A stretch of 26,214 nt of DNA from positions 1 to 26,214 of the IMG/VR virus record IMGVR_UViG_3300034198_005735; one strand, given 5' to 3'. Below the pieces are notes generated by a model, which had not been told where the DNA came from, made no database searches, and worked only from the letters and a program-made list of their open reading frames with translations. Position numbers and translations under genes: made by a program. Shown here one piece after another: positions 22,479 through 26,214 of the stretch (position 1 is its first letter; each line of letters begins with the position of its first letter). This stretch comes from a virus.

Positions 22479-22739
22479 ATGAATCAAGTTAGCGGAAGTA
22501 TTATCCACATAGGAAATACAGAAACAGTAGGAAGTAAAGGAACTTTCAAAAAAAGATTATTGGTAATTAAAACCGATGAGCAGTACCCACAGGAAATCCC
22601 TGTAGATTTTGTGCAAGACAAATGCGATTTACTAGATGCATTTGCACTAGGAGAGGATGTAATTGTAAAATTTACCGTAAAAGGTAATCCATACAATGGT
22701 AAGTGGTATTGCTCTTTAAACGGGTTTGAAATATTTTAA
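22479..22739 (+). CDS. DUF3127-like OB-fold protein
   Basis: The 86 residues match the DUF3127 pattern: strand VSGSIIHIGNTETVGSKGTF, then KKRLLVIKTDEQYPQEIPVD with the conserved TDEQYP, a helix KCDLLDAFALGEDVIVKFTV, and the strand GNPYNGKWYCSLNGFEIF. DUF3127 proteins are small OB-fold-like proteins common in Bacteroidota phages and are thought to bind single-stranded DNA or act beside SSB. It is the last gene of the first early operon, followed by a terminator. Single-strand binding is inferred from fold and context. Confidence 0.8.
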   Translation: MNQVSGSIIHIGNTETVGSKGTFKKRLLVIKTDEQYPQEIPVDFVQDKCDLLDAFALGEDVIVKFTVKGNPYNGKWYCSLNGFEIF

Positions 22740-22753
22740 TTATTAATAAAAAA

Positions 22754-22797
22754 AAACCCGCTATTTATTTAGTGGGTTTAAATTTATTTTTTATATT
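22754..22797 (+). terminator. intrinsic terminator of the first early operon
   Basis: A 10-bp stem AAACCCGCTA with TAGTGGGTTT (one G-U pair; 22754-22763 with 22770-22779) closes a 6-nt loop, followed by the T-rich stretch 22782-22797. It lies 15 nt after the DUF3127 stop. Its 3' side runs into the next promoter, marking a clean module boundary. Confidence 0.75.
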
Positions 22798-22799
22798 TG
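22792..22799 (+). promoter_or_regulatory. promoter -7 box before the replication operon
   Basis: TATATTTG (22792-22799) equals the -7 box of the two promoters in the control region. The best -33 match is TTTA at 22768-22771, 20 nt away and inside the terminator, so this promoter is one base off at -33. The expected start is near 22804-22807, just at the first hairpin of the leader RNA. Confidence 0.55.
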
Positions 22800-22804
22800 C
22801 AGTT

Positions 22805-22888
22805 GTAGAGTGGAAGCTACTGAAAAAATATTATAAATGCCTTATTACTCGCAACTTCCACTGCTTGTAGTAGGGCATTAACTTTTTA
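22805..22888 (+). ncRNA. structured leader RNA A with a predicted kissing loop
   Basis: Hairpin 1: GTAG (22805-22808), 8-nt loop AGTGGAAG (22809-22816), CTAC (22817-22820). After an A-rich linker, hairpin 2 has a 13-bp stem (22836-22848 with 22867-22879, two G-U pairs) and an 18-nt loop containing CTTCCACT (22855-22862), the exact complement of the hairpin 1 loop. A U-run follows and the initiator gene starts at 22894. The likely element is a leader or small RNA controlling the replication gene. The structure is read by eye, with no homologue known to me. Confidence 0.55.
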
Positions 22889-22893
22889 ATAAA

Positions 22894-23679
22894 ATGGATA
22901 TATTTAAATTAAACAGATATTTTTGGGATTATGCTTTTGAAAACCCAGAAAAAATTAAACCAAATCATTGTGCTATTTATTATTTTGCATTAGAACATTG
23001 CAATAGATTGGGTTGGAAAAAAAAATTTGGGTTTCCAACTTCTATGGTTTTAGAAGCAACTGGTATAAAAAGTTATTCAGTTTTTAAAAAAACATTTGAT
23101 GAATTAGTTTTATTTGAATTTTTTGAAGTTATAGAATATAGTAAAAATCAGTACTCTAGTAACATTATTGCTTTGAAAGAAAATTACAAAGCACTTAACA
23201 AAGCACTTGATAAAGCAAGTATAAAGCACGTAACAAAGCAAAGTGAAAGCACAGTACAAAGCACAGTACAAAGCATTGATAGTATAGATAAACATAATAC
23301 CAATATACAATCTAACAATAATACAAATAACAACATACCCGAAATTAAAAATTTCGGTGACGGTGATTTAAGTATTAATTATATTCATGCTAATATTTTA
23401 AAATCTGAAAGCCAAAGTTGGTTAGAATCAGTTTCAATGCAGCAAAAAATTTCAATTGAAGATATTATAAATAAAATTGATGATTTTGTTTTATTTTTGG
23501 AAACTACTCAAACCGAGCATAAAATAAAAAAAGGATTTATAGAACACTTTATTAATTGGCTAACAAAAAAACAAACATCAGAAAAAAATGGAAAACAATT
23601 TACAAACTCAGGAACAAAAAAACAATTCCGCTTTAACACAGCTGACGCACTCGAAACCCTTGCTCGCCAAAATCCATGA
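22894..23679 (+). CDS. replication initiator-like protein with internal origin
   Basis: The 261-residue protein begins with a winged-helix-like region (MDIFKLNRYFWDYAFENPEK, then YYFALEHCNRLGW and TSMVLEATGIKSYSVFKKTF) typical of phage replisome organisers. Residues 99-128 are encoded by iteron repeats and followed by an asparagine-rich linker (NNNTNNN). The C-terminal part from about 165, with QSWLESVSMQQKISIEDIIN and GFIEHFINWLTKK, resembles DUF7833/DnaD-like domains. As in lambda O, the gene carries its own binding sites. It probably recruits the host helicase. Its 3' end overlaps the next gene by 92 nt. It is translated behind leader RNA A. Confidence 0.7.
   Translation: MDIFKLNRYFWDYAFENPEKIKPNHCAIYYFALEHCNRLGWKKKFGFPTSMVLEATGIKSYSVFKKTFDELVLFEFFEVIEYSKNQYSSNIIALKENYKALNKALDKASIKHVTKQSESTVQSTVQSIDSIDKHNTNIQSNNNTNNNIPEIKNFGDGDLSINYIHANILKSESQSWLESVSMQQKISIEDIINKIDDFVLFLETTQTEHKIKKGFIEHFINWLTKKQTSEKNGKQFTNSGTKKQFRFNTADALETLARQNP
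23188..23275 (+). repeat. eight iterons of a probable replication origin
   Basis: AAAGCA occurs at 23188, 23200, 23212, 23223, 23235, 23246, 23258 and 23270, that is every 11-12 nt, about one helical turn; most copies extend to ACAAAGCAC. Because of the 11-nt steps, copies 1-3, 4-5 and 6-8 fall in three different reading frames, so selection acts on the DNA and not on the protein repeat. An AT-rich stretch (23276-23337) follows, fit for unwinding. This resembles the iterons within lambda O. Confidence 0.75.
23339..23357. repeat. perfect inverted repeat next to the origin
   Basis: CCGAAATT (23339-23346), AAA, AATTTCGG (23350-23357): an exact 8-bp inverted repeat with a 3-nt spacer, directly after the iterons and AT-rich stretch. 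It could form a hairpin in single-stranded origin DNA and serve as a primase or helicase loading signal. It lies in the coding region of the initiator-like gene. Confidence 0.45.
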
Positions 23680-25922: not shown

Positions 25923-25952
25923 TTTGTTTATATAAAAAAATATTTATATTTG
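25923..25952 (+). promoter_or_regulatory. promoter of leader RNA B
   Basis: TTTG (25923-25926), 18 nt, TATATTTG (25945-25952) is a full Bacteroidota consensus and has the same -7 box as the other three promoters called here. It lies just after the methyltransferase stop. The expected start is near 25957-25960. Confidence 0.65.
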
Positions 25953-25957
25953 CTAAA

Positions 25958-26046
25958 CAATACGGTCAGGTGTTGAAACGAAAAACATAATAAGTCCTGA
26001 CTTTGCCTACGCTGACCCGTAGGATTTAAGTCGGGGTTTTTAATTT
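25958..26046 (+). ncRNA. structured leader RNA B with competing stems and terminator
   Basis: A 5' segment GGTCAG (25964-25969) can pair either with CTGACT beside CC (25996-26002) or with the loop CTGACC (26012-26017). A hairpin CCTACG/CGTAGG (26006-26011 with 26018-26023) is extended outwards by AAGTCCTGACTT with AAGTCGGGGTTT (25992-26003 with 26028-26039, some G-U pairs) and followed by U-rich 26036-26046, which is a terminator. The 5' pairing would break the lower stem, giving a terminator/antiterminator choice. A small RNA or attenuated leader of the next gene is likely. Confidence 0.55.
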
Positions 26047-26062
26047 TATAAAAAAATAATAT

Positions 26063-26214
26063 ATGGAAAAAACAGCAGTAGAATTTATTAGCAAAGGATT
26101 ATTTGATATTCTGCAAGAAGCAGAAGATAATAATATTTTTGAAGTTGGAACACAAAATTTTAAAAGATATATTGAAATGTTTTTAGAACAAGCCAAAGAA
26201 ATGGAAAAGCAACA
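26063..26214 (+). CDS. start of a phage hypothetical protein, cut by window edge
   Basis: The frame starts at ATG 26063, about 20 nt after the leader terminator, and is open to the window edge (50 codons). It begins MEKTAVEFISKGLFDILQEA and ends EQAKEMEKQ at the edge. The opening MEKTAVE and the EQAKEMEKQ segment match a family of small phage proteins, from memory, that usually continue with a short C-terminal region. No function is known. It would be controlled by leader RNA B. Confidence 0.6.
   Translation, partial: MEKTAVEFISKGLFDILQEAEDNNIFEVGTQNFKRYIEMFLEQAKEMEKQ

Follow-up and report, generated by a model that had tools for sequence, protein, structure and literature searches.

Why should a phage replication initiator gene be preceded by two RNA hairpins whose loops are exact complements of each other? 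This arrangement occurs in a virus record of 26,214 bases (from here: the window), which carries structural and packaging genes on its minus strand and recombination and replication genes on its plus strand. The plus-strand genes encode a RecT-like protein, a DUF3127/SSB-like protein, an initiator-like protein (gene start at 22894), a second product of no assigned function and a Holliday-junction resolvase. The predicted place of this phage, based on promoter boxes, AT content and relatives, is among phages of Bacteroidota, chiefly Flavobacteriia. An earlier note had read the segment before the initiator gene as a leader RNA in which the loops of two hairpins are able to kiss, and had offered an attenuator, a copy-control leader and an independent small RNA as its possible functions. 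Comparison with related leaders supports this core reading, and transcription of the following gene probably depends on the leader.

Sample and tests

Leaders were collected through the initiator gene; scans with its N-terminus yielded 9 and then 80 viral loci (of 391 relatives) plus 21 genome loci. The finder, whose score is the sum of stem energies and kissing energies, demands the box TAnnTTTG, and leaders with other promoters are therefore missed. Filtering, which included an open ATG behind hairpin 2, left 42 leaders on 33 contigs, mostly of related phages; a few of them, e.g. L096 and L024, fit more poorly than the rest. L009-L011 are doubtful as members, being without promoter box and without U-tract. 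Three tests of the kissing helix were independent of having picked complementary sequences: one on a set defined by promoter position, one on a set defined by U-tailed hairpins and one on an alignment of nine leaders (A5) made with MAFFT without use of structure.

Two leaders in the window

The intrinsic terminator of the upstream gene marks the boundary between that gene and the promoter of leader A (22805-22893), and from there to the initiator ATG the DNA holds the TATATTTG box plus a 94-nt stretch (Table 1). The consensus -7 box of the earlier note is present, the leader does stand directly before the initiator gene, and the exact complementarity of the two loops was verified; neither AGTGGAAG nor its complement has a second occurrence anywhere in the window. 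The 13-bp stem ascribed to hairpin 2 was found as 13 pairs, topped by an internal loop and an upper stem that leaves ACUUCCAC as the free loop. The U-run at which the RNA had been said to end is there, but it is displaced and begins 4 nt beyond the stem.

Table 1 Features of the two leaders and their surroundings in the window
Feature	Position	Strand	Remarks
Intrinsic terminator of the upstream gene	22754..22779	+	AAACCCGC-TATTTA-TTTAGTGGGTTT and T-rich tail; called by terminator scan
-7 promoter box TATATTTG, Bacteroidetes type, leader A	22792..22799	+	from sequence
Hairpin 1, leader A	22805..22820	+	stem GTAG (22805-22808) / CTAC (22817-22820)
Kissing strand A5' AGTGGAAG	22809..22816	+	exact complement of 22855-22862; relatives covary
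Hairpin 2, leader A	22836..22879	+	13-pair lower stem 22836-22848/22867-22879, some G-U
Hairpin 2 upper part, leader A	22851-22853/22862-22864	+	internal loop; small upper stem GCA/UGC
Kissing strand A3' CTTCCACT	22855..22862	+	in hairpin 2 loop
U-run behind hairpin 2, putative intrinsic-terminator tail	22883..22887	+	T-run common across the family
Replication-initiator-like gene, first behind leader A	22894..23679	+	PF25200 domain
-7 promoter box TATATTTG, leader B	25945..25952	+	
Hairpin 1, leader B	25958..25975	+	CAATAC-GGTCAG-GTGTTG
Hairpin 2, leader B	25992..26039	+	lower stem 25992-26003/26028-26039; upper stem CCTACG/CGTAGG; U-run after
Gene behind leader B, small protein of no assigned function	26063..26214	+	runs off window end

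An 8-nt loop match had been judged improbable by chance, and none of 2000 dinucleotide shuffles equalled the finder score of leader A (-39.4, best shuffle -32.0, kissing helix included). With the kissing helix left out, the minimum free energy of leader A has a z of -3.5. Hairpin 1 is its least stable part, because nested folding offers an alternative weak stem there. Hairpin 2 was not called by the consensus terminator scan; its loop exceeds the length which that scan permits. Leader A also holds a 14-codon ORF (ATGCCT...TAA), and a conserved leader peptide was rejected, as most relatives are without a counterpart.

In the second copy, leader B (25953-26045), the loop CTGACC is complementary to GGTCAG. 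Hairpin 2 of leader B was also recovered by the covariance model R1, which ignores kissing pairs, and the finder score is -34.2, compared with -25.9 for the best remaining place in the window. Leaders A and B both have the elements that define the family, namely promoter, hairpin 1, complementary loops, hairpin 2, U-tract and ATG.

Four of the ten relatives of the initiator in alignment A2 matched phrog_18020 'replication initiation O-like'. Weak matches were to DnaD/replication-initiation proteins of lactobacillus phages, and a comparison of the N-terminus with solved structures returned zero matches. Direct repeats with the core ACAAAGCA lie within the initiator gene at 23174-23275 and encode a KALxKALDKA-type stretch that is recurrent in the relatives of alignment A2. 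The lambda O gene carries origin iterons inside the initiator gene, and the repeats look like such iterons by analogy; if they are, read-through from leader A would also bring transcription across the origin.

The kissing helix in related phages

Two interleaved inverted repeats of very different sequences stand directly upstream of many initiators or one gene further. The common order is a TAnnTTTG promoter, then hairpin 1 close to where transcription is predicted to start, hairpin 2, U-tract and ATG. The promoter box is a finder requirement in 42/42, yet it had first been noticed without that requirement upstream of homologous initiators. Hairpin 1 mostly has 4-7 bp and begins mostly 4-10 nt past TTTG, the kissing helix, bounded by the two loops, has 6-13 bp (mostly 7-9), and in hairpin 2 the lower stem mostly spans 9-13 bp and the upper one mostly 3-6 bp. 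The internal loop of hairpin 2 is purine-rich (e.g. TGAAA/GGAT, GAT/TGA, GGA/AAA), and two purines often precede the kissing stretch in the apical loop. A purine motif recurs in the internal loops of L090, L005, L015, L088 and L135 (TGAAA/GGAT, TGAT/TGAT, GA/GA); it could form tandem sheared G-A pairs and serve as a protein-binding or stacking element.

Among 20 non-redundant leaders of the initiator, selected solely for the position of their promoter, the longest complement was 8.35 nt within the same leader and 5.69 nt between different leaders, a difference not reached in any of 20,000 re-pairings. For 40 leaders defined by promoter, U-tailed hairpin and ORF, complementary stretches of at least 6 nt were found in 88% of own pairings versus 13% of pairings between different leaders (0/20,000 re-pairings). 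The earlier note had suggested a covariation check on homologous phages. In alignment A5, all 72 cells of the kissing helix are paired, double (compensatory) changes occur at 6 of the 8 pairs and G-U pairs are absent; sliding the partner by 1-3 columns lets pairing fall to 31-47%. Over the whole structure, double changes were seen at 20 of 23 pairs and the covariation score was 0.84, compared with at most 0.14 when slid. The structure tested on alignment A5 was taken from finder calls on the same sequences, a bias in its favour; the effect size speaks against this bias as the sole cause. Where the earlier note had envisaged that related phages might conserve neither stem nor loop complement, they keep both stems and the complementarity though the sequence changes. 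For the stem on either side of the 5' loop, too, the family as a whole gives a significant result (0/20,000 re-pairings), by which a pure H-type pseudoknot without hairpin 1 was rejected.

The base pairs also bear on whether the element works as RNA at all. The lower stem of hairpin 2 is strand-biased, with 119 C-G versus 48 G-C pairs, and 50 of its 450 pairs are G-U; the kissing helix has no strand bias and hardly any G-U (4/337). The latter resembles a DNA inverted repeat, and interleaved inverted repeats could act as operators or as a replication structure with no RNA role. Such a DNA-binding site would not allow a sequence almost free to vary, though, nor does it fit the G-U pairs of the lower stem or an element that begins near the promoter +1 in the sense direction, also ahead of non-replication genes. 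We regard a DNA-level role as highly improbable.

Phages carry one to three leader copies, at the heads of successive operons. Kissing sequences are nearly all distinct (39/42) with complementarity kept, and within one phage the copies pair with themselves over 6-13 nt versus 3-6 nt with each other, which is the chance level. The comparison of sequences documents the predicted structure with its kissing helix, a U-tract, a location ahead of a gene and the absence of cross-pairing.

At 26 places that were alike in other respects but had no ORF following, there was no mean kissing excess (7,994/20,000). This result weighs against the independent small RNA of the earlier note, which would have its own promoter, end at the U-tract, leave the gene to read-through and perhaps target other copies or host RNA in trans. 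Its own promoter, a compact fold and a U-tailed 3' end in 40/42 copies would suit such an RNA, whereas the ATG is at most 25 nt away for most copies, a fixed target is unlikely with loops so variable, and copies in the same phage do not cross-pair. An independent small RNA is therefore disfavoured, and we consider it distinctly unlikely.

Many relatives of the initiator, in Chryseobacterium and others, are without a leader, which makes the leader dispensable. It is absent from the phages FPSV-S2 and TCUEAP1, whose R1 matches were rejected as simple U-tailed hairpins, and none was seen in L186, a second relative of the L013 initiator. Applied to 397 Flavobacteriaceae genomes, R1 gave one strong new match (L171; genome G116, contig C164), a leader with a 10-nt kissing loop pair on a small contig of a Flavobacteriaceae assembly. 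It precedes a replication-like protein without Pfam match, for which no relatives were found among viral contigs, and the contig is probably a phage. A chromosomal role in Flavobacteriaceae was rejected, as the weaker R1 matches in these genomes contained no convincing kissing leader. The exact leader sequence was not found in viral contigs, as expected for a leader whose sequence is free-running. A fold that is kept while its loop-loop helix changes almost at will is a hard target for ordinary sequence or covariance searches.

U-tract and genes behind the leaders

A run of at least four T follows hairpin 2 in 40/42 leaders versus 6/42 ordinary gene starts, and positions +1 to +8 are T in 72% of cases versus 31% at the like place of ordinary genes of the phage Danklef. 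A stable U-tailed hairpin between promoter and first codon, as in attenuator leaders, is thus present. The distance from hairpin 2 to the ATG is 6-49 nt in 42/42, an open ATG being part of the filter, and mostly 13-25 nt; in a wider set of 52, the ATG lies within 49 nt in 45, again mostly at 13-25 nt.

Another role for such a leader is that hairpin 1, at the extreme 5' end, guards the mRNA from decay together with the kissing contact, or that both present the start codon region to the ribosome. In most copies hairpin 1 begins about 4-10 nt past TTTG, near the predicted +1, and an A-rich stretch and the ATG follow just behind the U-tract, as one would expect of a stabiliser or translational control. 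These roles leave the U-tract unexplained, however, and ordinary genes of a related phage have none; we think them unlikely.

The initiator directly follows about 17 of the 42 leaders, or about 31 with one gene allowed between, counts that are biased by the initiator-based sampling. Other genes behind leaders encode GIY-YIG and HNH/NUMOD4 endonucleases (homing endonucleases) and proteins of no assigned function. A copy-control leader specific to the initiator, as the earlier note had proposed, is too narrow, since the leader stands before other genes too. A leader bound to one initiator type was likewise rejected, given a DUF6291-like gene where the initiator would stand (L013), the N-terminus of the Freya type and the unrelated L171 protein. 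No gene family is common to the leader-bearing phages and restricted to them, some of their records being partial, and from these gene sets a phage-specific partner protein is not evident; a co-occurring phage protein as ligand was looked for and not found.

Relation to known RNA elements

Neither the window nor 20 loci of the family matched any Rfam 15 family at its gathering score, and a permissive search of 22700-23000 gave matches only far below gathering scores. A group I intron or other known RNA, an idea raised by the neighbouring homing endonucleases, was rejected for lack of an Rfam match. The leader is undescribed in the open-access literature, to which our search extended (subscription papers lay outside it).

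The nearest worked-out analogue is the expression platform of the corrinoid (cobalamin) riboswitch, where contact with the loop of an upstream hairpin, the L5-L13 kissing loop, stabilises an internally looped hairpin and leads to terminator formation or masking of the RBS (PMC10653944). The riboswitch has 3-5 bp of kissing, control by a ligand-binding aptamer and a conserved loop consensus (PMC10653944), whereas the phage leader has 7-9 bp, no known aptamer, unconserved loops and the U-tract on hairpin 2 itself. The corrinoid-binding core and Rfam match that mark membership were not found, no Rfam family being at gathering score.

The HK022 putRNA has about 70 nt and two stem-loops, belongs to early phage promoters and works without a phage protein (PMC9378689). 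Like the leader, putL and putR have two stem-loops, act in cis at early phage promoters and occur more than once per phage (PMC9378689). A kissing RNA of this kind would ride with the elongating RNA polymerase that made it, which would then resist pauses and terminators in later parts of the early operon. Size class and place match, no phage protein is common to the leader-bearing phages, and the copy number and location at the heads of operons agree as well. However, putL and putR are alike in sequence and leaders hardly so, and a U-tract right behind hairpin 2 runs counter to the needs of an antiterminator. The put copies are described as a V fold with RNA triplex, with kissing unmentioned and no terminator tail reported (PMC9378689); this description sets put apart from the leaders, almost all of which differ from one another in kissing and stem sequences. 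A put-like function appears improbable to us.

Terminator-type attenuator leaders (amino-acid operon leaders, riboswitches) have a U-tailed hairpin between promoter and start codon, as the phage leader does, but the latter has no family-wide leader peptide, known ligand site or mutually exclusive antiterminator that was found. Its hairpin 1, kissing helix and hairpin 2 are mutually compatible. Because these parts can form together and no obvious antiterminator helix competes, we do not class the leader with the classical attenuators but only compare it with them in its way of working. In the rep leaders of IncI/IncB plasmids, pseudoknots with intramolecular loop-loop pairing stand ahead of a replication initiator gene and control translation through a leader peptide and an antisense RNA; the phage leader differs in being carried by other genes also. 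We file the kissing-hairpin leader as a new family of cis-regulatory leader.

Proposed mechanism

Among the three functions offered earlier, an attenuator in cis appears to fit best, with the U-tract and the ATG just behind; the small RNA and initiator copy control do not hold up as well. The order of promoter, structured leader, U-tract and start codon points to such an attenuator. We give about an even chance to a cis-acting transcription attenuator in which a kissing loop holds the terminator hairpin. The attenuator would be the first 85-95 nt of the mRNA, with the transcript beginning at or next to hairpin 1, whose loop would be filled by a 7-9 nt sequence. Hairpin 2, with its 9-13 bp stem and U-tract mostly 13-25 nt before the start codon, would be an intrinsic terminator displaying the exact complement in its apical loop. 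As RNA polymerase advances, hairpin 1 would capture this loop, and the contact would stabilise hairpin 2 in its upper part, where the internal loop is, thereby setting how often the lower stem closes in time for termination. Transcription would either terminate and leave a short RNA or read through into the gene, in the window the initiator. With a loop pair of its own, each copy in a phage would avoid interference with the others. Counting against an attenuator are the displaced U-run of leader A, the missing terminator call for its hairpin 2, the mutual compatibility of all helices and the many initiator relatives without a leader. We infer termination itself, a kissing contact that promotes rather than prevents it, and modulation by a host factor, transcription speed or nucleotide supply. 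With no known aptamer and no gene family confined to leader-bearing phages, a host factor or the kinetics of transcription may provide the input.

If termination is conditional, flavobacterial phages would control the timing of their replication genes with no evident regulator encoded by the phage, and the leaders would be a supply of short, mutually orthogonal RNA control elements. In a further reading, which we take to be a long shot, the terminated leader would use loop exchange to bind nascent leaders made from its own copy on other genomes of the phage. Each operon would then measure its own transcript or genome number and shut itself off, with orthogonal loops allowing several circuits per phage.

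The proposed attenuator is directly testable because the isolated Polaribacter phages Danklef and Freya have the leader. Also in favour of the attenuator, the leader is identical in Danklef_1 and Freya_1 up to the end of the U-tract, and the sequences diverge from there. In Danklef_1, leader and initiator are separated precisely by a GIY-YIG endonuclease gene (L016 28524-29046), and Freya_1 has the same leader without this gene and with the initiator directly behind (L188 36602-36748). Similar GIY-YIG or HNH genes occupy the same place in L004, L021, L024, L043, L074 and L096. The initiators of Freya and Danklef (L187:2643-3530 vs L003:3001-3888) are nearly identical in their C-terminal part and differ in their N-terminal domains, a domain swap with one border at the leader end. 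A second Freya leader (L188:32542) has a 9-pair hairpin 1 and the kissing pair CCGCCAAG/CTTGGCGG, and the gene behind it is annotated as beta-lactamase superfamily.
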